The translations under genes were made by a program, and so were the position numbers. The notes under the pieces were generated by a model that did no database searches, was not told the origin of the DNA, and saw nothing but the letters and a program-made list of their open reading frames with translations. From positions 682,001-746,000 of the forward strand of contig LJCX01000027.1 in NCBI GenBank assembly GCA_001298545.1: DNA of 64,000 bases, read 5' to 3'. This DNA is from Actinobacteria bacterium OV320 (GTDB taxonomy: Bacteria > Actinomycetota > Actinomycetes > Streptomycetales > Streptomycetaceae). Of the stretch, positions 48,717 to 63,485 are shown piece after piece (positions within the stretch are counted from its first letter, which is position 1; every line of letters begins with the position of its first letter).

Positions 48717-48758
48717 CGCACGCGCGCGTGCGCCCGGTCGGCGCAGGTGGCGTCAGGC
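48711..48758. terminator. Composite hairpin between convergent transporter and isomerase genes
   Basis: GCCTGACGC (48711-48719) pairs with GCGTCAGGC (48750-48758), enclosing an inner palindrome GCACGCGCGCGTGC. It lies at the ends of the two convergent genes. Confidence 0.5.
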
Positions 48759-48760
48759 GC

Positions 48761-49807
48761 TCAGCACTTCTCGCGCAACGAGTGCAGGTGCGCGCTCGAC
48801 TTCCGTGCGAAGGCGAACGACTCGACCGGATTGTCGTGCTCGGCCTGCCAGTGGTGGGCCGACCGCTTACCGCGCAGCCGGGTCACGGCGGAGATGAACC
48901 GCTGGTAGTCGATGTCGCCGTCCCCGACGTCGGTCATCCGGTACCCGAACTGGTTCGAGGGGTCGCTGACGCCGTCCTTGACGTGGAAGAGCGGATAGCG
49001 ATGCGGCTGCCTCAGTACGTAGTCCAGCGGCTCGAAGGGCGCGGCCGTACCGTCGGCCCGCTTCGAGAAGCGGAACTGTCCGGCGTACGCCCAGAAGATG
49101 TCCATCTCCAGGAACACCAGGTCGGGGTCGGTCTCGGCGAGCAGTACGTCGTAGAGACGGACCTTGGGGTTGTCGGTCGCGAAGCCGAACTCGTCGGAGT
49201 GGTTGTGCTGGTAGAACTTCATGCCGCGGGCCCGCGCCGCCGCTCCGTACGTGTTGAACTCCTCGGCCGCGCGCTTCCACGCGTCGACGGTGGAGCCGTA
49301 GCGGAACGGCCCCGAGGCGGTGCCGATGTGCTTGAGGCCGAGGGCCTGGGCGTCGTCGAGGACCTTGGTGAGGTTCTGGGCGAAGGTGTAGGCGTTCGGG
49401 TCGTCGGCGTAGTAGCCGACGTGGCTGCCGATCGGTGTCAGTCCGTTGTTGCGTGCGAGTCGCTTGAGCTGGGCCAGGGTGATGGGGCCCGCGGAGCCCT
49501 GGGTGTAGCCGGCGAACTCGACCTCGTCGTACCCGTACTTCTTCAACTCGGCGAAGACGGGGGCGAAGCCCAGCGTGGAGACCTTGTCGCGCAGGCTGTA
49601 GAGCTGGATGCCGAGCCGGCCGGGGGGCAGGACGGGACGGCCGCGGCCGGCGGTGGAGGCACCGGTGCCGGTGGCGGGTGCCGCGCCGGCGGGCGAGGCG
49701 GCGGCCCCCAGCAGTGCGGCCGCGGTGGCTCCCGCGGCGACGCCGAGCATGCCTCGTCTGGTCAGGCGGTGGGTGAGTTCGGGGTCGATGTCGGAGATGC
49801 GGCTCAT
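48761..49807 (-). CDS. Tat-exported sugar phosphate isomerase/epimerase-like TIM-barrel protein
   Basis: A 348-aa protein. A twin-arginine signal (LTRRGMLGVAAGATAAALLGAAASPAGA) covers residues 13 to about 43. The xylose-isomerase-like barrel follows, with GIQLYSLRDKV, YGYDEVEFAGYT, MKFYQHNHSDEFGF, VFLEMDIFW and FHVKDG, which carry the Glu, His and Asp metal ligands. ATG 49807 is set by GAGGAG nine bases upstream. It lies 70 bases after eboF on the same strand and may be the last gene of the Ebo operon, or an independent secreted isomerase. Substrate unknown. Confidence 0.85.
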   Translation of the reverse strand: MSRISDIDPELTHRLTRRGMLGVAAGATAAALLGAAASPAGAAPATGTGASTAGRGRPVLPPGRLGIQLYSLRDKVSTLGFAPVFAELKKYGYDEVEFAGYTQGSAGPITLAQLKRLARNNGLTPIGSHVGYYADDPNAYTFAQNLTKVLDDAQALGLKHIGTASGPFRYGSTVDAWKRAAEEFNTYGAAARARGMKFYQHNHSDEFGFATDNPKVRLYDVLLAETDPDLVFLEMDIFWAYAGQFRFSKRADGTAAPFEPLDYVLRQPHRYPLFHVKDGVSDPSNQFGYRMTDVGDGDIDYQRFISAVTRLRGKRSAHHWQAEHDNPVESFAFARKSSAHLHSLREKC

Positions 49808-49877
49808 GTCTGGAACTCCTCGGGATCGGAGGGCGTTGTCAGTGGTGAGTGCTTCACTTGTGACAGTCGGCAACCGG

Positions 49878-51326
49878 TCAGCACAGACCGGCCAGTTGGA
49901 GCAGCAGTGCTTTCACGTCGGTGGCCGCGACACGGTCGCCGAGCGAACGGGGGGTGGAGCAGATGAGGAGCGGACCGTCGTCGTCGCTCGCGGGAAGGCG
50001 GCCGTGGCTGCCGCGAATAGGTGACGGATCGAGGGGCACCACCGCCATGCGGTAGCGCATGCCGAGCTTCTTGCGGGCCAGCGCACCCGCCGCCTTGACC
50101 TTCACGTACGGGTCGAGGGGATCCATGAACAGCTCGGCCGGGTCGTAGCCGGGCTTGCGGTGGATCTCCACCAGCTGCGCGAAGTCGGGTGCGCGGGCGT
50201 CGTCGAGCCAGTAGTAGTACGTGAACCAGGCGTCCGGCTCCGCCACGGCGACGAGTTCGCCGGAGCGCGGGTGGTCGAGACCGTGCTCCTTCTTGCCCTC
50301 GTCACCGAGGAGTTCACCGACCCCGGGCAGTTCCTCCAGCACCTCCCGCACACGGGGCAGGTCCTCGGGACGGCGCACATAGACGTGGGCGAGCTGGTGG
50401 TCGGCGACCGCGAAGGCACGGGACGCCATCGGGTCGAGGTACTCCATCCCGTCCTGGGTGTGCACTTCGAGCAGACCCGCGCGACGCAGCGCACGGTTGA
50501 TGTCGACCGGCCTGCTCACCCGGGTGATGCCGTACTCGGACAGCACGACGACCGTACGGCCCTGGGCCCGGGCGTCGGCCAGAAGGGGGGCCACGGCCGT
50601 GTCCAGGGCGGCGGCCGCCCGGAGCGAGCGGGGGTCGTCGGGGCCGAACCGCTGGAGGTCGTAGTCGAGGTGAGGGAGGTAGCACAGGGCCAGGTCGGGG
50701 TTGCGGGTGCGCAGTATGTGGCGGGTCGCGTCGATGATCCACCGGCTGGAGACCAGGTCCGCGCCCGGTCCCCAGAAGTGGAAGAGGGGGAAGGTGCCGA
50801 GTTTCTCGGCGAGTTCGTCGTGCAGGGCCGCGGGACGGGTGTAGCAGTCGGGTTCCTTGCGGCCGTCGGCGTAGTAGATCGGACGGGGGGTGACGGTGTA
50901 GTCGGTGTCGGCGCCCATGGCGTACCACCAGCAGATGTTGGCGACCGTGTAGCCGGGATACGCCCGCCGGGCGGCGTCCCACAGCTTGTCGCCGGCCACG
51001 AGACCGTTGTGCTGGCGCCACAGCAGGACGTCGCCGAGCTCACGGAAGTACCAGCCGTTACCGACGATGCCGTGCTCCGCGGGCAGCGTGCCGGTCAGGA
51101 AGGTGGACTGCGCTGCACAGGTGACGGCCGGCAGAACGGTCCCGAGCGGTGCGCCGGAGCCCGCCTGGGCGAGGGTCTTGAGGTGGGGCATGTGATCGAG
51201 CAGACGGGGGGTGAGACCGACGACGTCGAGGACGAGGAGGGGCACGGGCGCCTTGGGGGCAGAGGCGTGGGCGTGGGGTCCGGGCGGGTCCTGGGGCCCG
51301 GTGTCGCCGGATGCCGGGCTGCTCAT
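49878..51326 (-). CDS. eboF: Alkaline-phosphatase-superfamily nucleotide pyrophosphatase/phosphodiesterase (EboF-like)
   Basis: A 482-aa protein of the type I phosphodiesterase family. The first metal Asp is D34 in LLVLDVVGL, the nucleophile Thr lies in LPAVTCAAQSTFLTG, and later metal ligands are in PHLDYDLQRFG, VLSEYG and VADHQLAHVYV. No signal peptide is seen. It overlaps eboE by 4 bases. In cyanobacterial and bacterial Ebo operons this protein is the phosphatase member, so it may remove a phosphate or nucleotide group from the pathway intermediate. Symbol is given by cluster context. Confidence 0.82.
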   Translation of the reverse strand: MSSPASGDTGPQDPPGPHAHASAPKAPVPLLVLDVVGLTPRLLDHMPHLKTLAQAGSGAPLGTVLPAVTCAAQSTFLTGTLPAEHGIVGNGWYFRELGDVLLWRQHNGLVAGDKLWDAARRAYPGYTVANICWWYAMGADTDYTVTPRPIYYADGRKEPDCYTRPAALHDELAEKLGTFPLFHFWGPGADLVSSRWIIDATRHILRTRNPDLALCYLPHLDYDLQRFGPDDPRSLRAAAALDTAVAPLLADARAQGRTVVVLSEYGITRVSRPVDINRALRRAGLLEVHTQDGMEYLDPMASRAFAVADHQLAHVYVRRPEDLPRVREVLEELPGVGELLGDEGKKEHGLDHPRSGELVAVAEPDAWFTYYYWLDDARAPDFAQLVEIHRKPGYDPAELFMDPLDPYVKVKAAGALARKKLGMRYRMAVVPLDPSPIRGSHGRLPASDDDGPLLICSTPRSLGDRVAATDVKALLLQLAGLC

Positions 51327-52492
51327 GGGAGCTCCTTGAGGCCGAGGTCGGTCAAGAGGTCGCGAGCCAGGGCGAGTTCGGCGGCTATGCCGTCGGCGAG
51401 CTGGGCTCGGGCGCGAGGTCGCAGTTCGGGTGGGAGGGCCTGCCAGGTGTAGGTCTCGACCTCGAGGTGACGGGTCAGCGGGTGCGGGCCGCCGACCAGG
51501 CGGGTCAGGGCGGCTTTGAGGACGGGAAGCGTGGAGGTGAGGGGCGCGGCGGGGGCCGCGTGCAGGGGGACGTGGAAGTGGGCGCGCCAGGGTCCGGTGT
51601 CCGGCAGAGCGGCGGCGCCGAGTGCCTCGCCGAGGTCGTCGGTGCCGCGCAGGCCGCTGGCCGTGAGGGTGCGGGTCTGGTGCAGGAAGCGGGGTTCGTC
51701 GAACGCGGCGAGGGCGTCGCGGACGGCGGGGAGACGGGGGCGGTCGGCGTGCAGGGCCACGGACAGCTGGGATTTGACGACGGGGACGCCGGCTTCGGCG
51801 AGCGCGTCCAGGGCGGTGTCCGGGTCTTCGAAGGAGGTGGCGAGATGGCAGGTGTCGACGCAGACACCGATACGGGGGTGGCCGACGGCCGCGAGCGGGG
51901 CGAGAGCGTCGGCGGTGGTCTCGACGGTGCAGCCGGGTTCCGGTTCCAGGCCGACCCGGACGGAGCGGCCGGTCAGCTCCTCCAGCGCGTCCAGGCGCTC
52001 GCCGAGGGTGCGCAGGGCGGAGTGTGCCGTCGCGGCGCGTGCCGCGTTCCAGGCGGTGCGCCAGCCGAGCGGGAGGGTGGAGATGGTGCCCTCGGTGACA
52101 TCGTCGGGGAGAAGTCCGGCCAGGACACGGGCCAGTGCGGTGGTGTGCTCCAGGCGTTCAGCGTCTGCCCAATCGGGCTTGTACACGCGGTACTTGACCT
52201 CCTCGGCGCCGAAACCCTCGTACGGGAAGCCATTGAGGGTGACGACCTCGAGCCCCCGCCGATCGAGCGCGGTGCGCAGACCGCGCAAGGCCGACGGGTC
52301 GGCGTCGAGGGACCGGGCGGCATCCCTGGCCAGCCACAGCCCGACACCGAGCCGGTCACGGCCGAGGCGGCGCCGGACGGGTTCGCAGTGATCGCGGAGT
52401 TGCGCGAGAACGCCGTCGAGGGTTTCGGCGGGGTGGACGTTGGTGCAGTAGGCGAGGTGGACGGTCGAGCCGTCGGGGTGACGGAAGCGCAT
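51323..52492 (-). CDS. eboE: Metabolite traffic protein EboE (xylose-isomerase-like TIM barrel)
   Basis: A 389-aa protein beginning with the EboE hallmark LAYCTNVHPAETLDGVL (about residues 13-29). Further barrel segments are VVTLNGFPYEGFGAEEVKYRVYKPDW, VGLEPEPGCTVET, GVCVDTCHLATSFEDP and WRAHFHVPLH. Metal-binding Glu, His and Asp residues lie in these segments. EboE is implicated with other Ebo proteins in moving a precursor across the inner membrane in cyanobacteria; its chemical role is not established. It starts 3 bases after the TatD-like gene and overlaps eboF. Confidence 0.88.
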   Translation of the reverse strand: MRFRHPDGSTVHLAYCTNVHPAETLDGVLAQLRDHCEPVRRRLGRDRLGVGLWLARDAARSLDADPSALRGLRTALDRRGLEVVTLNGFPYEGFGAEEVKYRVYKPDWADAERLEHTTALARVLAGLLPDDVTEGTISTLPLGWRTAWNAARAATAHSALRTLGERLDALEELTGRSVRVGLEPEPGCTVETTADALAPLAAVGHPRIGVCVDTCHLATSFEDPDTALDALAEAGVPVVKSQLSVALHADRPRLPAVRDALAAFDEPRFLHQTRTLTASGLRGTDDLGEALGAAALPDTGPWRAHFHVPLHAAPAAPLTSTLPVLKAALTRLVGGPHPLTRHLEVETYTWQALPPELRPRARAQLADGIAAELALARDLLTDLGLKELP

Positions 52493-52495
52493 CGT

Positions 52496-53344
52496 TCACT
52501 CCCCGCCGCGCAGGATGGAATTGCCTTCGTGGGTGGGGTCGGGGGCGGTCACCTCGAGGGCGAGACGGCCGCTGAGGCCGTAGAAGGCGACGGGGTTGCG
52601 CCACAGGACGAGATCGACGTCGTCCTCGGTGAAGCCCGAGGCGAGCATGAGGTCGGCGACCCTTCGGGTCTTGAGCGGGTCGCTCCTGCCCCAGTCCGCG
52701 GCGCTGTTCACGAGGACCTTCTCCGGCCCGTACAGGCGGAGGATCCCGATCATGCGGGTCTCGTCCATCTTGGTGTCGGGGTAGACGGAGAAGCCCAGCC
52801 AGCAGTCGGCGTCCTTCGCCTCCTTCACGGTGGTCTCGTTGAGGTGGTCGAGCAGGATCCGGTCCGGCGGCAGGGCGGATTCACGGACGACGTCGAGGGT
52901 GCGGCGCAGTCCGGCGAGCTTGTCCCGGTGCGGGGTGTGCACGAGGGCCGGCAGGGCGTGGTCGGCGGCCAGCTGGAGCTGGGCGGCCAGGGCGGTGTCC
53001 TCGGCGGGCGTCATCGAGTCGTACCCGATCTCGCCGACGGCCACGACGTGGTCCTTGACGAGATAGCGCGGCAGCTCCTCCAGGACGGCGGCGCAGCGCG
53101 GGTCGTTGGCCTCCTTGGGGTTGAGGGCGAGCGCGCAGTGATGGGCGATGCCGTACTGCGCGGCCCGGAACGGTTCCCAGCCGAGAAGGGAGTCGAAGTA
53201 GTCGAGGAAGGAGGCGGTCGAGGTACGGGGCTGTCCCAGCCAGAAGGCCGGCTCGACGACGGCGCGGACGCCGGCCGCGTGCATCGCCTCGTAGTCGTCG
53301 GTGGTGCGCGAGGTCATGTGGATGTGGGGGTCGAAGATGCGCAT
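52496..53344 (-). CDS. eboB: TatD-family metal-dependent hydrolase (EboB-like)
   Basis: A 282-aa amidohydrolase-type barrel. The metal site begins with DPHIHM (H7, H9). Further ligands lie in VVAVGEIGYDS, LVHTPHRDK, LLDHLNE and VNSAADWGRSDPL. It shares one base with the eboA stop (TGATG), so translation is coupled. TatD relatives in Ebo clusters are constant members, but no substrate is known. DNase activity is not implied by the context. Confidence 0.87.
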   Translation of the reverse strand: MRIFDPHIHMTSRTTDDYEAMHAAGVRAVVEPAFWLGQPRTSTASFLDYFDSLLGWEPFRAAQYGIAHHCALALNPKEANDPRCAAVLEELPRYLVKDHVVAVGEIGYDSMTPAEDTALAAQLQLAADHALPALVHTPHRDKLAGLRRTLDVVRESALPPDRILLDHLNETTVKEAKDADCWLGFSVYPDTKMDETRMIGILRLYGPEKVLVNSAADWGRSDPLKTRRVADLMLASGFTEDDVDLVLWRNPVAFYGLSGRLALEVTAPDPTHEGNSILRGGE

Positions 53345-54162
53345 CAGGACTCCTTGCCGTGGGGGTGGGCCGGACGGTGGGAACCGCCCGAGCCAGGGGG
53401 GTCCGTGCGGTGGAGGTCCGGGGTGGATCCGCCCGAGTCGGTCGGGGCCACAGCCGTCGGATCGGGCAGAGCCGTCGGGTCGGGCAGAGCCGTCGAGTCG
53501 GGCAGAGCCGTCAGCGTCAGGACGCGGTGCAGATCGCGGGGTACGGGGCGGCCCGCGGCGGTGCGTTCGGTGGCGTAGTCACCGAGCATGCGGGCGAGTT
53601 CGGCGTCGGCGCGGGCGCGCTGTTCGAGGCCCGCCACCTCGTCGACGGGCACTCCGGCGAAGAGGCACTTCAGGACGGCGTGGCGCCAGGCGTGGGCGTC
53701 GAGGTGACGGGCGGCGTAGGGGCCGACGGCGGCCGCGACGAGCCGGGTGTCATGGGTGCGCAGGGCGTCCTCGACGAGCGGGAGGGCGTCGGGTCCGGAC
53801 ACCAGGTGGGGCAGCGCGTGCAGGACCGCGCGACGTTCTTCGGCGGTGCCCTGGGAGTACACGCGGGCCAGGGATTCCGGGTCGGCGCGGGCCGCGCGGA
53901 GGATGAGGACGCGGGCGGCGTCGGCGTAACGACCGCCGCACCGTCGTCCGGCCTCCGCGAGGCGCAACTCCCACACCGAGATGGGCCCATGGGTGCCCGG
54001 ATGGGCGGCGGCCTCGTCGAGAGCTCGGCGGAACCAGACGCGGGCGGTCGCCTCGAGATGGGTGTCGAGGTGGCGGTGCAAGGCGTCGAGGGGTGTGCGG
54101 GCCGGGGTGGTGCCCGCGTGTTCCGCTTCCGGGATTGCCGGGGCGGCGTGGGGGTGGGTCAT
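53344..54162 (-). CDS. eboA: EboA-domain protein
   Basis: A 272-aa protein. The central about 190 residues match the EboA domain, with helical repeats (WFRRALDEAAAHPG, VWELRLAEAGRRCGGRYADAARVLILRAARADPESLARVYSQG, RAVLHALPHLV). The C-terminal about 50 residues are low complexity (TALPDP repeats from 18-bp DNA units, then Gly/Pro/His). The fold suggests a scaffold rather than an enzyme, which is inference. It overlaps the upstream isomerase gene and the downstream TatD gene by 4 and 1 bases. Confidence 0.86.
   Translation of the reverse strand: MTHPHAAPAIPEAEHAGTTPARTPLDALHRHLDTHLEATARVWFRRALDEAAAHPGTHGPISVWELRLAEAGRRCGGRYADAARVLILRAARADPESLARVYSQGTAEERRAVLHALPHLVSGPDALPLVEDALRTHDTRLVAAAVGPYAARHLDAHAWRHAVLKCLFAGVPVDEVAGLEQRARADAELARMLGDYATERTAAGRPVPRDLHRVLTLTALPDSTALPDPTALPDPTAVAPTDSGGSTPDLHRTDPPGSGGSHRPAHPHGKES
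53452..53523 (-). repeat. Four 18-bp in-frame repeats in eboA
   Basis: Units AGCCGTCGGGTCGGGCAG-like start at 53452, 53470, 53488 and 53506 and encode TALPDS/TALPDP near the EboA C-terminus. Confidence 0.85.
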
Positions 54163-55436
54163 GGAGTACTCCCTTCTGGGGTGGCGGAGGGCTCGCCAGG
54201 TGGCGCGACGGGCAGGTTCGCTGCCCGGGACGGGCGGCTCGGGAGCGGGACGACGGCAGGTGGCCGCTGCCGACCGGAAGGCCCGACGGCAAGGCCGTTG
54301 GCCGGCAAGGCGGTTGGGCCGACCGTTGGACCGGCAGTTGGACCGTCGGTGGTGGGTGCGGTCGTGCCGGCGATCGGGACCGGGGAGCAGGGCGACTTCG
54401 GATCGGCGTGGTCGGTGACGGTGACTTGAGCGGATGCCGCCGCCTGGCGGAGGAACGGGAGGGAGGCTTCGGCGTGGTGGGGGCCGGCGTGGGAGTGGCG
54501 GGGCAGTTCGACGACCGTCAGCCCGCGGTAGCCGGTGTCGGCGAGAGCGGCCAGGACGGGCGGGAAGTCGATCTCGCCCTCCCCGAAGGGAAGGTGTTCG
54601 TGGACATCACGGCGCATGTCCTCGATCTGGACGTGGCGCAGCCATGGGGCCGCTGCGCTTACGCAGTCGGCGGGCGGGAGCGGCTCGAGGCACTGACAGT
54701 GGCCGATGTCGAGCGTGAGGCCGAGGAACGCCGGGTCGTCCAGAGCTCGGCGGAGCCGGTGGAAGTCGGCGAGGGTGGCCAGGAGGTGACCGGGTTCGGG
54801 TTCGATGGCGAGGGGGATGCCGGCGGACGCGGCGGCGTCCAGGACGGGGGCGAGAGTCTCGGCGAGGCGCTGCCATGCGGTCTCCGGCGCTGTACCTGGC
54901 GGGAGGGTTCCGCTGAAGCAGTGGACGGCGTGCGCGCCGAGGTCACCGGCGATCCGGACGGCGCGGAGCAGCAGGTCGACTCGGCGGGCGCGATCATCCG
55001 GCTCCGGGTCCAGGAGGGAGGGGCCGTGCTTGCGACGCGCGTCCAGGACATAGCGGGCGCCGGTCTCGAGGGTGACGTCCAGCCCGAGGGCGTCCAGTCG
55101 GTGCGCGAGGTGTCGGACGCGGACGGCGAGGTCCGGGGCGAACGGGTCGAGGTGCATGTGGTCGAGCGTCAGCCCGACACCGTCGTAGCCGAGGTCGGAG
55201 AGCAGGGCGAGGGCGTCGTCGAGGCGGAGATCGGCGAGGCCGTTCGTGCCGTAGCCGAAACGGAGCGGGAGCGAAGGAGGGGGCGAGGGCGAAGGAGGGG
55301 GCGAAGGAGGGGGCGAAGGCGGGGGCGGGGGCGAAGGCAGCGATGCCAGGGGCCGCGGCGAGGGTGGGAGCGGGGTGATCGCGTTCGGGGTCTTCTCGTC
55401 GGGGCCGCTCTCGCGGCTCGTAGGTCCGAGGCTCAC
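54159..55436 (-). CDS. Sugar phosphate isomerase/epimerase with Pro-rich N-terminus, Ebo cluster
   Basis: A 425-aa protein. GTG 55436 overlaps the stop of the prenyltransferase gene (GTGA), which sets the start; the frame runs on upstream without sense. Residues 21-58 are nearly all Pro and Ser. The TIM barrel occupies about 59-335: RFGYGTNGLADLRLDDALALL, VGLTLDHMHLDPF, LETGARYVLD, HCFSGTL, AIEPEPGHLLATLADF, TLDIGHCQCL, HVQIEDMRRDVHEHLPFGEGEIDF. The acidic and His metal ligands of the xylose-isomerase fold are all present. The last 70 residues are low complexity. It probably acts on the cyclitol or sugar intermediate of the cluster. Confidence 0.85.
   Translation of the reverse strand: MSLGPTSRESGPDEKTPNAITPLPPSPRPLASLPSPPPPPSPPPSPPPSPSPPPSLPLRFGYGTNGLADLRLDDALALLSDLGYDGVGLTLDHMHLDPFAPDLAVRVRHLAHRLDALGLDVTLETGARYVLDARRKHGPSLLDPEPDDRARRVDLLLRAVRIAGDLGAHAVHCFSGTLPPGTAPETAWQRLAETLAPVLDAAASAGIPLAIEPEPGHLLATLADFHRLRRALDDPAFLGLTLDIGHCQCLEPLPPADCVSAAAPWLRHVQIEDMRRDVHEHLPFGEGEIDFPPVLAALADTGYRGLTVVELPRHSHAGPHHAEASLPFLRQAAASAQVTVTDHADPKSPCSPVPIAGTTAPTTDGPTAGPTVGPTALPANGLAVGPSGRQRPPAVVPLPSRPSRAANLPVAPPGEPSATPEGSTP
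55263..55376 (-). repeat. Pro-Ser simple repeat in the Ebo-cluster isomerase
   Basis: Purine-rich GGGGGCGAAGGAGG-like units encode (PPSPP)n at residues 21-58. Imperfect units of 12-15 bp are visible. Confidence 0.75.
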
Positions 55437-56719
55437 GTGATGCTCACCCGCCTCGCGAGGCGCCGGGCGACCGGTGCCAGGGCGGCCGTGAGCAGCGCGG
55501 TGGCAGTGGCAGCGGTACCTCCCGAGCGAGCGAGGAGAGCGGCCTGGAGGGGAATGGTGCCGCGAATGCCGGCGCCGACGGCTTGTTGGGTGAGAGGAGG
55601 GGACGGGTTGAGGGAGGCGTGCAGGTAGGAGCGGGCCGTGGTGCCGGCGTAGGTGGCGGCGAGCGCTGCGGTCAGCGGCGCGGGCGAGCGGTGCGCGGAT
55701 CCCGGCTCCGGCCTCCCACGACGACCGTGCACCTGCCCGTCGGGGGACCGTCGGTCCGGTGACGGCCCGAGTGCCGGACGACGCTGCACCAGCCAGGTCA
55801 GTGCGCCTGTCGTGGCCAGGGCGGCCAGGGCTGCCGTGGGCGTGCCCTCGCGGGTCTCCTGGCGGGACAGGGCCGTGACCGCGAGCGTGTGCGTGGCCAG
55901 AAGTGCGGCGGAGGGGAGGGCCGGGCGTGCTCGCCCGCCGGTGGCGGCGGCACCGAGGAGGAGGTCCAGGCCGCGGGCGACGGCCATGGCGAACGGGCCT
56001 GCGGGCGTGTGCTTCAGGGCCAGGTCGTAGGACCAGACGGTGGCTGCGAGCGGAGCCGCGATCGTCAGGGCCGGGCGGCCCGCCCGGGCGGCCAGGGCGA
56101 GACCGGCGGCGGTGAGGGCGCAGGCCGCCGTGAAGGCGGCGGCGGGGCTCACGCGGCCGGAGGGGAGAGGGCGGTGGGGGCGATCGGCGGCGTCCTCCGC
56201 TCGGTCGGCCCAGTCGTTGAGAACCATGCCGGCCTCGTACAGGCAGCAGGAGGAGCCGATGGCGAGCAGGGTCCGGTGGTCGGGGCGCCGGGTGAGCGCG
56301 GCGGCACCCGCCAGCGCGTCGCCGGGGACGGTGAACAGGGCCGGCAGCCGCAGCAGTTCTGCCCAGGCCCGCACGCGAGCGCGGCTCCGCTCGGAGGCAC
56401 CGGTCACCGCACCGACCGGCCCGCCCGGCGTACCGGCCTCCGCAGCCGCCCACCCGTCCGATGTGCCGGACCCCGAAGCCACCTTCCCGTCCGACGTGTC
56501 GGCCTCCGAACCCGCCTTCCCCTCCAAGACACCGGTCTCCGGAGTCGCCCACCCGTCCGAGACACCGGCCTCCGAACCCACCCTCCGGTCCGACATACCG
56601 GTCTCGGGAGCCACACAACGGCCCGACGCACCGGCCTCCGCAGACATCTCCCCGTCCGGTACGGTGGCCGACGCGTCCGCTCGCCTCTGGACTCCGCGCA
56701 CCGCGTCGCCCCCGCTCAT
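55433..56719 (-). CDS. eboC: UbiA-family prenyltransferase (EboC-like, SCO3242 type)
   Basis: A 428-aa protein. The membrane domain starts near residue 112 (WAELLRLPALFTVPGDALAGAAAL), and the first prenyl-diphosphate Asp motif is NDWADRAEDAADRPHRPLPSG. The second site is the YDLALKHTPAGP to ARGLDLLLG region. About eight helices are predicted. It attaches an isoprenoid chain to an acceptor at the membrane. Residues 28-104 are seven 11-residue repeats unknown in the family. The ATG at 56719 overlaps the inositol synthase stop (ATGA) and has GAGGAG before it; a longer start is rejected. Confidence 0.87.
   Translation of the reverse strand: MSGGDAVRGVQRRADASATVPDGEMSAEAGASGRCVAPETGMSDRRVGSEAGVSDGWATPETGVLEGKAGSEADTSDGKVASGSGTSDGWAAAEAGTPGGPVGAVTGASERSRARVRAWAELLRLPALFTVPGDALAGAAALTRRPDHRTLLAIGSSCCLYEAGMVLNDWADRAEDAADRPHRPLPSGRVSPAAAFTAACALTAAGLALAARAGRPALTIAAPLAATVWSYDLALKHTPAGPFAMAVARGLDLLLGAAATGGRARPALPSAALLATHTLAVTALSRQETREGTPTAALAALATTGALTWLVQRRPALGPSPDRRSPDGQVHGRRGRPEPGSAHRSPAPLTAALAATYAGTTARSYLHASLNPSPPLTQQAVGAGIRGTIPLQAALLARSGGTAATATALLTAALAPVARRLARRVSIT
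56408..56638 (-). repeat. Seven 33-bp in-frame repeats at the 5' end of the prenyltransferase gene
   Basis: Exactly 231 bp encoding seven 11-residue units (EAGASGRCVAP, ETGMSDRRVGS, EAGVSDGWATP, ETGVLEGKAGS and so on). An eighth degenerate unit runs into the membrane domain. Confidence 0.85.
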
Positions 56720-57930
56720 CCCGCCTCCTCGCCCGACCCCGTCGTGTGATCGCGCCGTGCCCCGGGCGTCTCGCATTCGTCGGTCTCGCCACTCCCATAG
56801 CCCCCTCCCCCGCCGCCCCTCAGCCGTCGGGCGAACCGCTCCAGTTGCGCGTGCTGCTCCGCCAGGGCCGACGGCGCTTCGCCCACCGGGTCCTTGAAGA
56901 AGAAGGCGAGTTCGCCGAGCGGGCCGGACAGCCCGGCTTCGTGGGCCCGGGCGGTGAGGCGGGCAAGGTCGAGGACGAGCGGTGCCGCGAGCGCGGAGTC
57001 GCAGCCCTGCCAGATGGTCTGGAGGATCATGCGGGTGCCCAGGAAGCCGTCGAAGGCGACGTGGTCCCAGGCCGTCTTCCAGTCCCCCAGGACCGGAACG
57101 TCGTCGATGTGGACGCGGCCCTCGGGAGTGGTCCCGAGGGTGTCGGCGAGGACGCGTTCCTTGCCCGCGTTCTTCGCCTCGGCGGCGGCCGGGTCGGCCA
57201 GGGCGGCTCCGTCACCGCCGCCCAGGAGGTTGGTGCCGGACCAGGCCCGGACGGCCAGTGCCCGCTGGGCGAACATCGGCCCGAGGACGGAACGCAGCAG
57301 CGTCTGCCCGGTCTTGCCGTCACGGCCGGCGTACGGCAGCCCGCTCGACTCCGCCACGGGCACCAGCGCAGGGTGGTGCAGTCCCGTGGACGGGGTGAAG
57401 TTCACATACGGGCAGCCGGCTCGCAGGGCCGCGGCCGCGTAGAGGGAGCTCGGCGGCAGCTCGTGGCCGGTCGCCGCCGGTTCGGTCGAGGCCACGTTCA
57501 CCACCACCGCACGGGCGAGACCGTGCCGCCGTACGAAGTCGCGTATGTCGGCGGCGAACTCGCCGATCAGCCGCTCGTCGCTGCGGGTGTCTCCCGGAAC
57601 AGGGCCTCCGGGTCTGATCTCCTCATCGGCAAGGGTGAGTTCGGCCTCGACTGCCGCGGGGAGGCCCGCCGGGAGGACTCCTCCGGCCGCCAGTTGCTCG
57701 GCGCGCTTGGGCAGAGGGCAGCCGGTCGTGTCGTGCCCGCCGAAGACGAGGGAGGACAAGGTGGGCAAGCCGCTGTCGGCGAACGTGGGCATCTCGGTGA
57801 CCAGGCCCGTCGGCGGGCGCAGGCCTGCCGTGACGGCGGCGCACCCCGCGACCACGGTGGTGGCCACGGAACCGCGGGCCCCGATCAGCCAGACGCCGAC
57901 GCGCGGGGGACGGGAAAGGGACGCGGACAT
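56716..57930 (-). CDS. ino1: myo-Inositol-1-phosphate synthase in Ebo cluster
   Basis: A 404-aa NAD-dependent cyclase. The NAD site is GVWLIGARGSVATTVV (about 12-27), with further family motifs VNVASTEPA, NFTPSTG, YAGRDGKTGQTLLRSVL, WSGTNLLGG and ILQTIWQGCDSALAAPL. It turns glucose 6-phosphate into 1L-myo-inositol 1-phosphate. It is the first gene of the Ebo operon; ATG 57930 is fixed by AAGGAGG seven bases upstream. Residues at the extreme C-terminus are Gly-rich and variable. Since it heads the operon, its product is probably the cyclitol head group of the unknown metabolite. Confidence 0.92.
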   Translation of the reverse strand: MSASLSRPPRVGVWLIGARGSVATTVVAGCAAVTAGLRPPTGLVTEMPTFADSGLPTLSSLVFGGHDTTGCPLPKRAEQLAAGGVLPAGLPAAVEAELTLADEEIRPGGPVPGDTRSDERLIGEFAADIRDFVRRHGLARAVVVNVASTEPAATGHELPPSSLYAAAALRAGCPYVNFTPSTGLHHPALVPVAESSGLPYAGRDGKTGQTLLRSVLGPMFAQRALAVRAWSGTNLLGGGDGAALADPAAAEAKNAGKERVLADTLGTTPEGRVHIDDVPVLGDWKTAWDHVAFDGFLGTRMILQTIWQGCDSALAAPLVLDLARLTARAHEAGLSGPLGELAFFFKDPVGEAPSALAEQHAQLERFARRLRGGGGGGYGSGETDECETPGARRDHTTGSGEEAG

Positions 57931-58072
57931 GGACAGCCTCCTTGTCGTGCGCGAACCTCGGAGTACGAGGCGGGAGGAAAGGAGAAGAAGGGAGACGAAG
58001 GGAGAAGGACGGAGAGTCGGACGAACAGGCCGCAACTGCTGGGAAGTTCGGCGCGGCGAAGGCCTGGGCGGT

Positions 58073-58252
58073 GACGGCCGGGGTGATGACGGCCGGAGTG
58101 GCGACGGCCGGGGTGGTGACGGCCGGAGTGGTGACGGCCGGAGTGGTGACGGCCGGAGTGGTGACGGCCGGGGTGGTGACGGCCGGAGTGGTGACGGCCG
58201 GAGTGGTGACGGCCGGGGTGGTGACGGCCGGGGTGGTGACGGCCGGCGGGGG
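58073..58252. repeat. Twelve 15-bp tandem repeats (GACGGCCGGNGTGGT)
   Basis: GAC occurs every 15 bases from 58073 to 58238, with G or A at the variable position and one GTGAT and one GTGGC variant. Units are directly joined with no spacers, so it is a minisatellite, not a CRISPR. Confidence 0.9.
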
Positions 58253-58452
58253 GGCGGCGTGCCCCCCCCCCCCCCCGGTCGCGGGCCCGGCCCGGCCCCG
58301 CGGTGGTCGCCCCGAGGGCGCGGGCGGAGGGGGGGGGGGGGGAGGTGGGGGGGGCCGGCGGGGGGAGGGGCGGGGCCGGCGGGGGGGGGGGGGGCGGCGG
58401 GGGGGGGGGCGGCGGGGGTGGGGGGGGGGGGGGGGGGTAGGGGGCCCCCCGC
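58253..58452. repeat. G/C homopolymer tract, probable assembly artefact
   Basis: It contains runs of 15 C and many runs of 6 to 14 G with scattered T and A. It ends 10 bases before the stop of the ThuA gene. Sequence quality is doubtful and may hide a terminator. Confidence 0.75.
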
Positions 58453-58462
58453 CCGCCGCCGT

Positions 58463-59845
58463 TCAGTGGCCCTGGCCGGGCAGTTCCCTGATCCGGACGT
58501 CACGGAAGGACACCTGGTCGTCGGCTCCGTGGTTCTGCAGGCCGAGGTGGCCGTCGCGCAGACTCCGCGCCGGATCGGTGTTGGTGAAGTCGTTGATCTT
58601 CACGCCGTTGAGCCAGACGCGCAGACGCTCGCCCTCCACCCGGATCTCGTACGTGTTCCACTCCCCCGGCGGGTTCAGCGCGCGGTCCCGCTTCTTCAGG
58701 TCGGCGGACCGGAAGCCGTAGACCGACCCGGTGGTCTTCTCGGGGACGTCGGTGGCGTCGATCTGGATCTCGTAGCCGTTGTTCACCGCGGACCACGGGT
58801 CGTCCGAGGGCGGGAAGCCCACGAACACACCGGAGTTGTCGTCGCCGGGGTCGCTCGGGCCGGCGGCTGTGGTCCTCCAGTCGAGCTTCACGGAGTACGC
58901 CCCGAAGCTACGACCGGCATACCAGAGCAGACCCATGCCGCCCGTGGACGTCAGCGTGCCGTCGTCGGAGAGGGTGAAGGAGCCGGGTCCGGCCTGCTGC
59001 CAGCCGTCCAGGGACGTGCCGTCGAAGAGTGGACGGTATCCGTTCTCCGGTCGGCAGTCGGCCTGCACATCGGAGACCGCATACAGTATCCCGCCCAGTA
59101 GGTGTCTACGGAATGCAGGATCCGCGTACGACTCCTTCGTGTGACCGCCCCCGGTGTAGAAGGCGCGGCCGCCCTGATAGTTCTGACACCAGGCGATCGG
59201 ATGGTCGCCGTTCATGGTGCCGCCCGTGTACGACTGCTCGTCGAGCGAGGCCAGGACGTGCGCCCGCTCGCGCGGGTTGGAGCGGTAGTTGTACCACTCG
59301 TCGGTGCGGTTCCAGGTGCGGGCGAGCGCCGAGGTCGCCGGGTGGGCCCGGTCCTCGACCTCGACCGTCGCCGGCTGGATGGCCGGATGCGACTGGAACA
59401 AGGCGCCGGCGAGGCCGCCGTAGAACTCCCAGTCGTACTCGGTGTCGGCCGCCGCGTGCACCCCGACATAGCCGCCGCCGTGCCGGATGTAGCCCTCGAA
59501 AGCGGCCTGCTGTGCGGAATCCAGGACGTCCCCGGTCGTCGACAGGAAGACGACGGCCTCGTAGTGCCGCAGGTTCCCCGGTGTGAAGGCGCCCGCGTCC
59601 TCGGTGGCGTCGACCCCGAAACCGCCCGCCGCGCCGAGCTCTCGCACCGCGGCGACGCCGTCCGGGATCGAGTCGTGCCGGAAGCCGGCCGTCTTGGAGA
59701 AGACCAGTACCCGTTTCCCGCTGTTTCCCTTCCCCATGCCCTTGCTCCCGCTGTCCTCGGAGTGCGAGGCAGCCGGGCCCGAGACACTGCCGAGGAGCAG
59801 CGCCGCGCCCACGACGACGGTGGCCAGTCGGCGGGTTGCATACAT
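58463..59845 (-). CDS. Secreted ThuA-domain protein fused to DUF1080 (3-keto-disaccharide hydrolase)
   Basis: A 460-aa exported protein. The signal peptide is residues 1 to about 28 (RRLATVVVGAALLLGSVSGPAAS). ThuA (class I glutamine-amidotransferase fold) spans about 44-260, with VLVFSKTAGFRHDSI, GGGYVGVHAAADTEYDWEFYGGL and PIAWCQNYQGGRAFYTGGGH. DUF1080 follows from about 270 (YRPLFDGTSLDGWQQAG, then DDNSGVFVGFPPSDDPW and NPPGEWNTYEIRVEG). DUF1080 proteins include hydrolases of 3-keto-glycosides. ATG 59845 has GGAGGG six bases upstream; the GTG before it is too close. It is 14 bases after the sorbosone-dehydrogenase-like gene and so in its operon. Confidence 0.88.
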   Translation of the reverse strand: MYATRRLATVVVGAALLLGSVSGPAASHSEDSGSKGMGKGNSGKRVLVFSKTAGFRHDSIPDGVAAVRELGAAGGFGVDATEDAGAFTPGNLRHYEAVVFLSTTGDVLDSAQQAAFEGYIRHGGGYVGVHAAADTEYDWEFYGGLAGALFQSHPAIQPATVEVEDRAHPATSALARTWNRTDEWYNYRSNPRERAHVLASLDEQSYTGGTMNGDHPIAWCQNYQGGRAFYTGGGHTKESYADPAFRRHLLGGILYAVSDVQADCRPENGYRPLFDGTSLDGWQQAGPGSFTLSDDGTLTSTGGMGLLWYAGRSFGAYSVKLDWRTTAAGPSDPGDDNSGVFVGFPPSDDPWSAVNNGYEIQIDATDVPEKTTGSVYGFRSADLKKRDRALNPPGEWNTYEIRVEGERLRVWLNGVKINDFTNTDPARSLRDGHLGLQNHGADDQVSFRDVRIRELPGQGH

Positions 59846-59859
59846 CACGTGCCCTCCTC

Positions 59860-62358
59860 TCAGCCGGTCGTGAAGGTGAAGTCGTCCACGTCGAAGAGGG
59901 CGCCGGAGCCGCCCTTGAAGACGAGGTGGAGCGTGGTGGTACCGCGCGGGGTGCGGGACAGGTCGGCGCTGACGTCCTGGAAGGTCTCCCAGCCGCCGGT
60001 CACCGGGACGGTGGCCTTGCCGAGCAGGGTGCCGGTCGGCGAGCCGGCGCGGATCTCCAGCGTTCCGCCCGCGCCGCCCGAGGAGACACGTGCGGTGACC
60101 TTCGTGGCGTTGCCGAGGACGTACGGCGTGAAGGAGATCCAGTCACCGTTGTCGATGTCGCCGACCGTCCTGCCGCCGTGGGCGACGTCCTTGGTGATGA
60201 CCGTGACACCGGACGAGTCACCGAAGTGCTCGGCCTGGCGGTGGCGTGGCTGAAGGACGTTCTGGTCGTGCGAGGTGAGCGGGGCCTGGCCGCCACCTCC
60301 GCCGTCGGTGTACTCGGCGTCGAGAACTCCGAAGATGTTGGCGTCCTCGTCGTGGCCACCGTCGGCGCTGGTCTGCAGGGTGCCGCTGCAACCGGTTGCC
60401 GACGTTACCGGGTGACCGTGACTGTCGTGGCCGAGGACGAACGTGACCTCGACCTTGGAGCAGTCGATCGCCTTGCCGTCCTCGGGGTCGGTGACCCGCA
60501 CCTTGAACGGGATCGCGTCACCGAAACTGAACAACTGGCCGTCTCTCGGCGTTTCCAGCACCACCTTCGGCGCCGTGTTCCCCACCACGATCTGCACACT
60601 CGCGCTGCCGGTCCGGCCGGAGCCGTCCTCGGCTGTCAGGGTCGCGGTGTACGTGCCGTTCTTCTTGTACTTGTGCGTGGGGTCGGTCGCCGTCGAGGTG
60701 CCGCCGTCGCCGAAGTCCCAGTGGTAGGTGAGCGCGTCGCCGTCCTGGTCGGTCGTTCCGGCGGAGGAGAAACGTACCTTCAGAGGGGCCTGTCCCGACG
60801 TGCGGTCGGCTGCGGCCTGGGCTACCGGGGAGTGGCCGTCGGTGGCGTTCTCGATGCGGTACAGACCGGAGTGCTCGTCGCCGCCGAACCAGGCGGTGCC
60901 GTAGTCGAGGACGTACAGCGCCCCGTCGGGCCCGAACGCCATGTCCATCACCTGGGTGCCGGTCCACGGGACGCTGTTGATCGACTGCACGGCGCCGTTC
61001 GCATCGCCGACGATGCGCTTGATCCAGCGCCGTCCGAACTCACCGGCGAAGAAGTTCCCGTCGTAGGCCTCCGGGAACTTCACCGGCGAGTCGAGCGAGG
61101 CGTCGTAGTGGTAGACGGGGCCGCCCATCGGGGACTCGGAACCGTCGCCGAACTCGGGTACCGACGGGCCGTCGTACGCAATCCAGGCGGGCTGGGCCGG
61201 GGGCAGGTCGGTGAGGCCGGTGTTGTGCGGCGAGGTGTTCTTCGGGGCGGCGCAGTCGAAGGGCGCACCGGATACACCGGTCGCGAAATCGTATGCGATA
61301 TACGGGTCATTGTCGCCCGTGCAGAACGGCCACCCGAAGTTCCCGGGCCCGGTGACCCGTGCGAACTCGACCTGACCGGCCGGTCCGCGGGCCGGGTCGG
61401 CCGCGCCGGCATCGGGGCCGTAGTCGCCGACGTAGAGGATGCCGGTGGCCTTGTCGACGCTGAAGCGGAACGGGTTGCGGAAACCCATCGCGTAGATCTC
61501 GGGCCGCGTCCTGTCCGTACCGGGCGCGAACAGGTTGCCGTCCGGAACGGCGTAGGAACCGTCGGCGTTCACCTTGATGCGCAGGATCTTGCCGCGCAGG
61601 TCGTTGGTGTTGCCGGAGGAACGGCGGGCGTCGAACGCGGGATTGCGGTTGTCGCGCTCGTCGATGGGCGTGAAGCCGTCCGACTGGAAGGGGTTGCTGT
61701 CGTCGCCGGTGGACAGGTAGAGGTTCCCCGCCGCGTCGAAGTCGATGTCGCCGCCGACATGGCAGCACAGGCCGCGCGAGGCCGGTATGTCGAGGATCTT
61801 CGTCTCGCTCGAGACGTCGAGCGTGCCGTCCGTCCCGAGCACGAAGCGGGAAAGGCGGTTGACGCCGTCGAAGGGAGCGAAGTCGGCGGCCGTTCCGGTC
61901 TCGGGAGCATCGCCCGCCGGGGTGTTCAACGGCGGTGCGTAGTAGAGGTAGATGAAGCGGTTGGCCGCGAACTCCGGGTCCACTCCGATGCCTTGAAGGC
62001 CCTCCTCGTCGTGGGAGTAGACGTCGAGCTTGCCGGCCAGTCGGGTGTTGCCGGCGGCGTCGGTGAGCCGGAGTTCGCCGTCGCGTGAGGTGTGCAGGAC
62101 GGAGCGGTCGGGCAGCACGGCGAGCGACATGGGCTCGCCTACCTCCGCCTCCCCCTTGGCGAGGGTGACCTGCTGGAAGTCCTCGGCTGCCGAGACCACC
62201 GGGTCGGCGACGGCTGCGCCGGCCTGGGGTGCGGTGAGGGTGAGCGACGCGCCGGCCAGCAGGGCGCCGCTCAGCAGGGCGACGGCTCTGCGCAGCGATG
62301 GACGTCGTCGGCGGGTCTCGGCTCTGCGGGTGCCGGTGGTGGGGTCGTTCCCGTGCAC
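59860..62358 (-). CDS. Secreted glucose/sorbosone dehydrogenase-like protein with PKD and CBM6 domains
   Basis: An 832-aa exported protein. A signal peptide ends near residue 49 (LLSGALLAGASLTLTAPQAGA). The beta-propeller (about 65-485) resembles PQQ-dependent sugar dehydrogenases (SLAVLPDRSVLHTSRDGELRL, GLCCHVGGDIDFDAAGNLYLSTGDD, IYAMGFRNPFRFSVD). A PKD domain (YHWDFGDGGTSTATDPTHKYKKNGTY) and a CBM6-like domain at the end (about 690-832) follow. It may oxidise sugars at the cell surface or polysaccharide. GTG 62358 is set by GGAGG five bases upstream. PQQ synthesis genes are not in the window, so cofactor use is untested. Confidence 0.87.
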   Translation of the reverse strand: MHGNDPTTGTRRAETRRRRPSLRRAVALLSGALLAGASLTLTAPQAGAAVADPVVSAAEDFQQVTLAKGEAEVGEPMSLAVLPDRSVLHTSRDGELRLTDAAGNTRLAGKLDVYSHDEEGLQGIGVDPEFAANRFIYLYYAPPLNTPAGDAPETGTAADFAPFDGVNRLSRFVLGTDGTLDVSSETKILDIPASRGLCCHVGGDIDFDAAGNLYLSTGDDSNPFQSDGFTPIDERDNRNPAFDARRSSGNTNDLRGKILRIKVNADGSYAVPDGNLFAPGTDRTRPEIYAMGFRNPFRFSVDKATGILYVGDYGPDAGAADPARGPAGQVEFARVTGPGNFGWPFCTGDNDPYIAYDFATGVSGAPFDCAAPKNTSPHNTGLTDLPPAQPAWIAYDGPSVPEFGDGSESPMGGPVYHYDASLDSPVKFPEAYDGNFFAGEFGRRWIKRIVGDANGAVQSINSVPWTGTQVMDMAFGPDGALYVLDYGTAWFGGDEHSGLYRIENATDGHSPVAQAAADRTSGQAPLKVRFSSAGTTDQDGDALTYHWDFGDGGTSTATDPTHKYKKNGTYTATLTAEDGSGRTGSASVQIVVGNTAPKVVLETPRDGQLFSFGDAIPFKVRVTDPEDGKAIDCSKVEVTFVLGHDSHGHPVTSATGCSGTLQTSADGGHDEDANIFGVLDAEYTDGGGGGQAPLTSHDQNVLQPRHRQAEHFGDSSGVTVITKDVAHGGRTVGDIDNGDWISFTPYVLGNATKVTARVSSGGAGGTLEIRAGSPTGTLLGKATVPVTGGWETFQDVSADLSRTPRGTTTLHLVFKGGSGALFDVDDFTFTTG

Positions 62359-62486: not shown

Positions 62487-63485
62487 TCAGTTGCCGAACG
62501 CCGCGTCGAAGGACGCGGAGGGCGGCTCGAAGTCGAACGCCTTGAGGCGGGCGAGGGCTTCGGGGGCGCCCTGCAGCCGGTCCATTCCGGCGTCCTCCCA
62601 CTCGACGGAGATCGGGCCCTGGTAGTCGATGGAGCGCAGCATGCGGAAGACGTCCTCCCAGGGGACGTCGCCGTGGCCGGCGGAGACGAAGTCCCAGCCG
62701 CGTCGCGGGTCGCCCCAGGGCAGATGGGAGCCGAGGCGCCCGTTGCGGCCATCCAGCCGCTTGCGGGCCTCCTTGCAGTCCACGTGGTAGATGCGGTCGC
62801 GGAAGTCCCACAGGAAGCCGACCGGGTCGAGGTCCTGCCACACGAAGTGGCTCGGGTCAAAGTTGAGACCGAAGGCCGGTCGGCGGTCGACCGCCTCCAA
62901 TGTGCGTACGGTCGTCCAGTAGTCGTAGGCGATCTCGCTGGGGTGGACCTCGTGCGCGAACCGCACCCCCTGCGCGTCGAAGACGTCGAGAATGGGGTTC
63001 CAGCGCTCGGCGAAGTCCTCGTAGCCCCGCTCGATCATCGACTCGGGCGCGGGCGGGAACATGGCGACCAGATGCCAGATGGCGGAGCCGGTGAAGCCGA
63101 TCACCGTGTCGACGCCGAAGGCGGCCGCGGCCCTGGCGGTGTCGGCGATCTCGGCGGCGGCTCGCCGCCGGACGCCCTCCGGTTCGCCGTCGCCCCAGAT
63201 ACGGGCGGGCAGGATGGCCTGGTGGCGTTCGTCGATGATGGCGTCGCAGACGGCCTGCCCCACAAGGTGGTTGGAGATGGCCCAGCACTTCAGCCCGTAC
63301 TTGTCGAGGATTTGGTGGCGGGACTCCACGTACCCGGGATCCGCGAGGGCCTTGTCGACCTCGAAGTGGTCTCCCCAGCAGGCGAGTTCGAGCCCGTCGT
63401 AACCGAAGTCACGGGCGAGGCGGCAGACCTCCTCCAGGGGCAGGTCGGCCCACTGGCCGGTGAACAGTGTGAACGTACGCGGCAT
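62487..63485 (-). CDS. Sugar phosphate isomerase/epimerase (xylose-isomerase-like TIM barrel)
   Basis: A 332-aa cytosolic protein with no signal peptide. Barrel motifs are [81 protein letters not shown] and [12 protein letters not shown], giving the Glu, Asp, His and Glu metal ligands of the family. Relatives next to Gfo/Idh oxidoreductases act on inositols, keto-sugars or 3-keto-glycosides. It follows the oxidoreductase gene by 21 bases, so the two are one operon, and it lies 128 bp before the sorbosone-dehydrogenase-like gene. Its exact substrate is unknown. Confidence 0.88.

Follow-up and report, generated by a model that had tools for sequence, protein, structure and literature searches.

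Described ebo systems and the operon of the window

The ebo operon (eboABCDEF) was described by Yurchenko et al. (2016), who in the available text of their report proposed an isoprenoid-cyclitol as its product (PMC5133447). Section 3.7 of that report gives the products of EboD-class cyclases as phosphate-free, the available text also mentions actinobacterial proteins in which a xylose-isomerase-like part is fused to EboA, and neither "inositol" nor "Ino1" occurs in its main text (PMC5133447). In Nostoc punctiforme, ebo mutants hold the scytonemin monomer in the cytoplasm, and the role shown for the ebo genes in the available text is the movement of this monomer to the periplasm; ScyE belongs to the scytonemin pathway (PMC6282210). 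Here we analyzed a window of 64,000 nucleotides from Actinobacteria bacterium OV320 (contig LJCX01000027.1, positions 682,001 to 746,000), in which seven genes at positions 49878-57930 form an ebo-type operon headed by ino1, a gene for an inositol-phosphate synthase homologue. Like eboABCDEF as described in the available text of PMC5133447, this operon combines homologues of EboA, EboB, EboE and EboF with a UbiA-superfamily prenyltransferase, and the same components are common to it and the Nostoc scytonemin ebo cluster (PMC6282210). In contrast to both, it has no eboD; ino1 and tim, a gene for a xylose-isomerase-like TIM barrel, are found instead, in the fixed order ino1-ubiA-tim-eboA-eboB-eboE-eboF. 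In the cyanobacterial ebo loci examined, EboD is the linked cyclase and tim is absent, and the fused actinobacterial proteins mentioned above would correspond to tim-eboA. The loci compared below indicate that the ino1-tim pair has very probably taken the place of eboD in actinobacterial ebo operons.

An earlier note, made from the letters of this DNA, had reported the seven genes as one tightly packed operon, and our analysis agreed with it to the base: all seven lie on the minus strand, and their successive junctions are overlaps of 4, 4, 4 and 1 bases, a gap of 3 bases and an overlap of 4 bases. The head gene ino1 (56716..57930) encodes 404 amino acids with the Pfam domains NAD_binding_5 (132.9 bits) and Inos-1-P_synth (99.1 bits), both over their cut-offs. 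It is followed by ubiA (55433..56719), whose product belongs to the NCBIfam SCO3242 family (NF045897, 381 bits against a cut-off of 260) and falls below the EboC model NF035940 (121.6 bits against a cut-off of 250). The third gene, tim (54159..55436), begins with GTG and encodes the xylose-isomerase-like TIM barrel (PF01261, 153 bits). The remaining genes are eboA (53344..54162), for an all-helical protein with the EboA domain (NF035938, 164.9 bits, cut-off 50) that does not reach the narrower EboA_family model NF035937 (65.3 against 320); eboB (52496..53344), for a TatD-like metal-dependent hydrolase (PF01026 TatD_DNase, 45.5 bits, cut-off 27); eboE (51323..52492), for a TIM-barrel "metabolite traffic protein" (NF035939, 420.9 bits, cut-off 250); and eboF (49878..51326), for a type I phosphodiesterase/alkaline-phosphatase-like hydrolase (PF01663 Phosphodiest, 230 bits). 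The EboB and EboF assignments agree with what is found in ebo operons elsewhere: after iteration, models seeded with the window proteins matched an EboD-type locus (L044) at 408 and 722 bits, respectively, and also gave matches in most of 80 EboE loci from outside the phylum. A second ino1-ebo operon is present on another contig (C2) of the same 10.1-Mb genome, which very probably belongs to Streptomyces, to judge from its size, from the survey of the genus and from matching plasmids. We also observed long, repetitive low-complexity N-terminal extensions, rich in Glu/Ala/Gly or in Pro/Ser, on the UbiA (approximately 110 amino acids) and TIM proteins, and similar stretches at the C terminus of EboA.

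In the literature searched, whose coverage excluded most subscription journals, no paper linking Ino1 with ebo genes was found among the matches listed, and the Ino1 form is, as far as the searched literature shows, a new variant of the known ebo operon. Public records already name the genes singly, as inositol-3-phosphate synthase, SCO3242 family prenyltransferase, EboA domain-containing protein and EboE; the novelty lies in the comparison of loci, not in the gene-by-gene names.

Distribution of ino1 and eboD at ebo loci

EboE was detected in 19 of 396 genomes of the phylum, in 18 of them over the family cut-off, and 20 full loci were obtained. Eighteen of these loci, from 17 genomes, are headed by ino1 and share one gene order, with tim and eboA fused in L038; because the same order recurs across other genera and families, it is not due to chance. 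Of the two exceptions, L044 carries eboD (eboD-eboB-eboE-ubiA-eboF, without tim) and L028 carries neither cyclase gene (ubiA-tim-eboA-eboB-eboE-eboF), so that eboD is absent from 19 of the 20 full loci. The nineteenth EboE genome (G279) holds a decayed locus (L045). Similar results were obtained with 40 further Streptomyces loci, hand-picked for long contigs from the EboE matches in the genus (119 over the cut-off) and scored with presence thresholds set by hand: ino1 and tim occur together in 36, tim without ino1 in four and eboD in none.

The loci outside the phylum, assigned by their titles to Cyanobacteria, Bacteroidota, Acidobacteriota, Chloroflexota and others, show the opposite pattern. 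With 40 bits under the best-scoring model as the minimum for a gene, eboD was present in 76 of 80 loci, ino1 in none and tim in none. These are the best 80 of 586, and they lean towards the EboD type because the query was led by an EboD-type EboE. A weaker tim-like frame in L095 scored below 40 bits, and the eboD of L102 (93 bits), located at a contig end, is fragmentary. For these layouts and those of the phylum survey, the profiles were iterated on the loci themselves. Whole-genome searches of 29 of the 80 outside genomes found any Ino1 in 10 (the completeness of these genomes is not given). Among the loci examined, tim is confined to ebo operons of the actinobacterial form.

Thus, ebo loci occur in two states, one with eboD and without tim and the other with tim and, usually, ino1. 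Given that the loci of the phylum carry ino1 (18/20) and those outside it carry eboD (76/80) without ino1 or tim, the ino1-tim pair stands where eboD does elsewhere. The suggestion of the earlier note that Ino1 holds EboD's place is therefore borne out with regard to position, but the replacement consists of ino1 and tim together rather than of Ino1 alone; likewise, ino1 is the usual first gene of actinobacterial ebo loci and not a universal one, as one locus has eboD and several Streptomyces loci of a second type have neither. No true EboD was found elsewhere in the genome of the window. Three dehydroquinate-synthase (DHQS)-like proteins encoded there scored 175-207 on the EboD model, and a fourth match of 21.9 bits, which lay under the Pfam cut-off, was not fetched. 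The best EboD of each EboD-type locus scored 541-617, with the exception of one truncated by a contig end, and DHQS-like loci of other genomes scored 156-203 (three cases tested).

The distribution also bears on Streptomyces coelicolor, in which SCO3242 ("putative transferase") and SCO3243 ("myo-inositol phosphate synthase") are counted, in the available text of PMC3610822, among the calcium-dependent antibiotic (CDA) genes SCO3210-SCO3249. The ubiA of the window belongs to the SCO3242 family, and in the genus survey such genes are part of a widespread operon. Some genes at present assigned to the CDA cluster of S. coelicolor may thus belong to a separate pathway; SCO3237-3241 may be the remaining ebo genes, going by their numbering.

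Association of ino1 with tim and loci without ino1

The best sign that ino1 and tim act as a unit, albeit a single case, comes from G279, in which ubiA, eboA, eboB, a broken eboE and eboF lie on one contig (L045) and ino1, directly followed by tim, lies on another (L160). This split suggests that the two genes act together and jointly take EboD's part. Close to the free-standing ino1-tim pair, a frame at 5475-6371 of L160 resembles, by eye, a PIG-L/LmbE-type deacetylase. Of the two genes, tim is the more constant, being present in all of the 40 further Streptomyces loci as opposed to 36 for ino1, and second-type operons without ino1 retain it. Conversely, three of the 40 loci (L181 of G443, L201 of G496 and L202 of G481) have no ubiA between ino1 and tim. 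Each lies in a genome with a second EboE locus, and that of G481 (L143) contains ubiA and not ino1.

Eight Streptomyces loci with ubiA lack ino1. Five of them (L028, L138, L180, L187 and L191) have genes of the inositol-monophosphatase family and for an FAD oxidoreductase upstream, which the other three (L137, L143 and L174) do not. The count leaves out L141, which lacks ubiA too; L137, L138, L141, L142 and L143 had been chosen for their unusual look and stand outside the 40 loci. We count the inositol-monophosphatase-family gene in favor of the prenylated cyclitol proposed below. In the second-type operons without ino1 (L028, L137, L180, L187 and similar loci), a gene of approximately 395 amino acids follows the operon; in the two cases searched, L028 and L137, it encodes a cytochrome P450, next to which a macro-domain protein is encoded in L028. 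L141 (G456:C78, 3537-15089) contains nested ebo sets, tim-A1-B1-E1 and A2-B2-E2-F2 followed by F1 and a TIM barrel with a twin-arginine translocation (Tat) signal, and neither ino1 nor ubiA was found in this stretch, which contains 202 N.

Copy number, type and active site of the operon Ino1

Three Ino1 copies are encoded in the genome of the window, so the operon copy is not its only one. In 150 genomes of the window's genus, all of which have at least one Ino1, an EboE match was found in 107 (in 104 over the cut-off); according to a cross-count made from hand-copied genome lists, at least two Ino1 genes are present in 104 of these 107 genomes and in three of the 43 without EboE (G461, G484 and G526). 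Of the three EboE genomes with a single Ino1, G408 and G460 have operons without ino1 (L138 and L137, respectively) and G444 is 82% complete. Of the 17 genomes of the phylum survey that have an ino1-ebo operon, 15 encode a further Ino1 elsewhere. In G268 (100% complete) and G318 (82% complete), no Ino1 was found besides the operon copy, which may for this reason also serve housekeeping.

The operon Ino1 differs in type from its housekeeping counterpart. Its best solved relative is the myo-inositol phosphate synthase (mIPS) of Archaeoglobus fulgidus (1u1i, 204 bits), followed at a distance by 6k96 (46 bits) and the Mycobacterium tuberculosis enzyme (35 bits), and for the housekeeping Ino1 of the same genome this ranking is reversed (M. 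tuberculosis enzyme 598, 6k96 212 and A. fulgidus 41 bits). The operon protein also falls far below the mycothiol-type equivalog TIGR03450 (28.1 bits against a cut-off of 638). In a tree of 42 rows, of which L003 and L026 represent the same gene, the mycothiol-type copies are split from the operon copies with a support of 100/100. The operon Ino1s fall on the same side as A. fulgidus, the copy of G279 and a longer type (approximately 410 residues), and the mutual order on that side is unsupported and subject to a long-branch warning. On the basis of the extra copies, their tracking with ebo and the split from the mycothiol type, the reading of the operon Ino1 as the housekeeping copy was rejected.

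The same observations make it highly improbable that Ino1 merely supplies inositol for phosphatidylinositol or mycothiol and that its position before the ebo genes is incidental. Ino1 is a common enzyme of primary metabolism, and G268 and G318 would fit such a supply role; extra copies that track ebo, a gene order that is fixed, genes that overlap from ino1 to eboB in the window (by 4, 4, 4 and 1 bases) and an Ino1 that is not of the mycothiol type all stand against it.

At the active site, D225, N255, K274, K278, K306, D332 and K367 (A. fulgidus numbers), positions that we take to be catalytic and whose letters were read off 1u1i, are conserved in all 20 operon rows, which represent 19 different genes. 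As they are equally kept in Ino1 rows of any type, they speak for activity and not for a given product. Two further checked positions vary. At position 310, 18 operon rows have Asp and two have Asn, and at position 259 all 20 operon rows have Gly, where the 21 other bacterial rows have Asn and A. fulgidus has Asp; because this Gly occurs in all operon Ino1s, the substrate or product may differ. The operon Ino1 thus resembles the archaeal-type mIPS in its domain make-up and in seven of the nine checked positions, which are the same in all rows, and differs from it by the Gly at 259 and by its ebo operon context. Judged from these alignments, activity is to be expected, possibly with a somewhat altered active site.

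It is possible, if rather unlikely, that the carbocycle formed by the operon Ino1 homologue is not myo-inositol phosphate; the TIM-barrel enzyme might, for instance, modify the sugar phosphate before it is cyclized. The replacement of eboD would be unaffected. The Gly at position 259 would suit such a product, as would the greater constancy of tim (40/40 against 36/40 for ino1) and the sugar-phosphate 3-epimerase folds among the best matches of its model. A synthase of a five-membered cyclitol phosphate from the same superfamily has moreover been solved (6k96); we take it to be Ari2, a specialized Ino1 paralogue of a Streptomyces secondary-metabolite pathway. Ari2 is closer to the mycothiol type (212 bits) than to the operon Ino1, however. 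An Ari2-type identity of the window protein was rejected on its scores with 6k96 (46 bits) and the A. fulgidus mIPS (204 bits) and is retained only as a weaker rival, and the four checked lysines are all kept.

Other enzymes of the operon

The UbiA protein meets the superfamily model (PF01040, 77.8 bits), and in the alignment its first Asp-rich motif is intact (NDWADxxxD..RPxRPLPSG). The solved protein nearest to the family alignment is digeranylgeranylglyceryl-phosphate (DGGGP) synthase 6m31 (54.5 bits), a likeness that refers to the best solved match, and the equivalog for geranylgeranylglycerol-phosphate geranylgeranyltransferase (NF009521) is not reached (59.7 against 296). DGGGP synthase prenylates a polyol phosphate, namely a glycerol-phosphate ether, which argues against the alternative that the prenyl acceptor of the operon is aromatic and that the cyclitol serves otherwise, for instance as a head group or an export regulator. 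We regard this alternative as improbable. It draws on three Bacteroidota EboC homologues, which according to the available text farnesylated 8-hydroxyquinoline-2-carboxylic acid (PMC9235831), and on the ebo mutants of Nostoc with their cytoplasmic scytonemin monomer (PMC6282210); the acceptors tried with the Bacteroidota enzymes were, however, all aromatic (PMC9235831).

In the tim alignment, E156, D187 and H190 are conserved and E254 is present in at least 90% of the rows (alignment numbering). These Glu, Asp, His and Glu positions are presumably the metal site expected in the xylose-isomerase-like superfamily. The AlphaFold model of the protein (predicted local distance difference test, pLDDT, 94) is nearest in fold to ketose and sugar-phosphate 3-epimerases, with xylose isomerases close behind; the best match was 3wqo (Z 32.9, root-mean-square deviation [rmsd] 1.9, 263 residues aligned), and L-ribulose 3-epimerase 3vyl gave Z 29.9 and rmsd 2.4 over 264 aligned residues. 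No equivalog cut-off was reached, be it for IolE (33 against 290), hydroxypyruvate isomerase (45.5 against 353), IolO (40.7 against 300) or ribulose-5-phosphate epimerases (26-33 against 200-317).

The model of EboA (53515-54090, pLDDT 94.7) consists of 13 helices and had no Foldseek match at E 0.001. A helical-repeat part of a spliceosome protein was its best structural match (Z 9.4, rmsd 4.9 over 176 residues) and was set aside as a telling fold, as it may reflect only a common arrangement. The predicted helix bundle is compatible with the scaffold role proposed in the available text of PMC6282210. EboF and EboE had only weak matches among solved structures.

Proposed product of the ino1-type operon

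The explanation that best accounts for the locus, and which we consider somewhat probable as a whole, mechanism and role included, is that a prenylated C6 cyclitol is what the actinobacterial ebo variant makes. Taken separately, a prenylated cyclitol as product is close to an even call. From homology and the catalytic residues, Ino1 would close glucose 6-phosphate to inositol phosphate. The TIM-barrel enzyme would set the stereochemistry or oxidation pattern of the ring, the UbiA/SCO3242 membrane prenyltransferase would put a prenyl chain on a hydroxyl of the polyol phosphate, EboF would take off the phosphate, and EboA, EboB and EboE may finish, handle or traffic the product. The prenylated C6 cyclitol predicted here would stand beside a prenylated C7 cyclitol from EboD-type operons, and by analogy with Nostoc its likely use would be in taking metabolites or precursors across the membrane.

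At the sequence level, this proposal is supported by the fixed gene order, the replacement of eboD, the separable ino1-tim pair, the extra Ino1 copy, the intact active site and the adjacency of isoprenoid genes. With regard to the last of these, a polyprenyl diphosphate synthase gene adjoins the operon in L036, in L037 (with a 4-base overlap with eboF) and in L040 (on the opposite strand), and an isopentenyl diphosphate (IPP) isomerase gene adjoins it in L036 and L041 (on the opposite strand in L041). These are five matches among 14 direct flanks, in four of the seven non-Streptomyces Ino1-type loci with flanks; the count was noticed after the fact, with whole-genome match counts as its only control (2-6 polyprenyl-synthase and 0-2 IPP-isomerase matches in each of the seven genomes). 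G097 has no IPP isomerase match other than that adjoining the operon. Flank genes were called with a simple G+C-frame caller and those of the 40 Streptomyces loci were taken from stop-to-stop frames, so that starts are rough, and one of the 14 flanks is misplaced because the caller missed the ino1 of L042, which was found by the profile layout.

Several points weigh against the proposal. The product of a mIPS is phosphorylated and that of an EboD-class cyclase is phosphate-free, so that one identical enzyme would not be fed by both without a further step; EboF could level this difference, or the two operon forms could serve one purpose with different lipids. It is also not obvious what keto substrate inositol phosphate would offer a TIM isomerase. 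Position 259 of Ino1 is changed, and the seven kept positions are common to every type of Ino1. Three genomes of the genus without EboE also have a second Ino1, and in G268 and G318 the operon copy is the sole one found. The quinolines farnesylated by the three Bacteroidota EboC enzymes are aromatic, as were all 14 acceptors tried in the available text (PMC9235831). The usual Streptomyces neighbors of the operon look like a sugar uptake and oxidation locus. Finally, single-sequence actinobacterial queries, which may only be too remote, found no polyprenyl-synthase or IPP-isomerase neighbor in the 80 EboD-type loci.

The occurrence of two unrelated ring-forming enzymes at the same place of the operon gives independent support for a carbocycle in the ebo product, a question since 2016, and the ino1 form suggests glucose 6-phosphate as a likely substrate and an inositol-type ring, which can be labeled and sought. 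With EboE in 107 of 150 genomes of the genus, laboratory strains that grow readily can be expected to be at hand. A more speculative extension, which we put forward tentatively and consider doubtful, is that prenylated inositols or related C6 cyclitols are an undescribed class of membrane carriers that move metabolites to extracytoplasmic tailoring enzymes; Ino1 and the TIM protein would then be convergent with the EboD of cyanobacteria and Bacteroidota, and ebo would need a carbocyclic head group but no particular ring.

Genomic surroundings

Directly upstream of ino1 in the window, a minus-strand gene (58463..59848) encodes a ThuA and 3-keto-disaccharide-hydrolase (DUF1080) protein (PF06283, 269 bits; PF06439, 157 bits) whose N terminus looks by eye like a signal peptide. 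It is preceded, on the same strand, by a gene for a glucose/sorbosone-dehydrogenase-like (GSDH) protein with PKD and CBM6 domains (59860..62199, start approximate; PF07995, PF18911 and PF03422 on 59863-61998) and by one for a second TIM barrel of 332 amino acids, of the sugar-phosphate isomerase/epimerase type (62487..63485), a homologue of L172:3867-4871 (PF01261, 147 bits). Downstream, 70 bases from the operon and again on the minus strand, lies a gene for a TIM barrel with a Tat signal (48761..49807, start approximate; PF01261, 58.9 bits), for which 8tcs, 8tcd and 8tct are the nearest solved structures.

This arrangement is part of a row usual in Streptomyces, in which an ABC sugar permease, a sugar-binding lipoprotein, a Gfo/Idh/MocA dehydrogenase (levoglucosan-dehydrogenase-like, 363 bits against a cut-off of 650), a TIM barrel, GSDH, ThuA/DUF1080, ino1-eboF and the Tat TIM barrel are encoded on the same strand. 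ThuA, GSDH and the Tat TIM barrel are each found in 32 of the 40 further Streptomyces loci. GSDH is near 11 of the 18 Ino1-type loci of the phylum survey and gave a strong match in three of the 80 EboD-type loci. The Tat TIM barrel, the DUF1080/ThuA protein and GSDH presumably resemble an extracytoplasmic 3-keto-sugar pathway; in the literature searched, no paper on 3-keto-glycosides was found. From such flanks one could argue that the whole locus is one of carbohydrate catabolism, with uptake, 3-keto oxidation and lyase and hydratase steps, to which the ebo genes contribute hydrolases and isomerases. We judge this quite improbable, given that prenyltransferases and carbocycle synthases are enzymes of biosynthetic type and that the seven genes also occur away from the sugar locus, next to nonribosomal peptide synthetase genes (annotated as such in L163, recognized by eye in L184), type II polyketide synthase genes (L161) and the isoprenoid-precursor genes described above.

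Between the ThuA gene and ino1, a 15-base unit is repeated in tandem 11.8 times (58070..58246; Tandem Repeats Finder score 305), and beside this array, at 58329-58437, the sequence is rich in G/C homopolymers. An RNA element in the ino1 leader was considered and dropped, as no Rfam match reached gathering scores in 46000-62000 and only the tandem repeats were found. Plasmids carry ino1 homologues too: 44 plasmid records match the Ino1 of the window, of which three were examined, and in a Streptomyces plasmid locus (L162) a gene of the ScyD/ScyE family (256 bits, cut-off 80) adjoins ino1, with a multicopper oxidase gene nearby.

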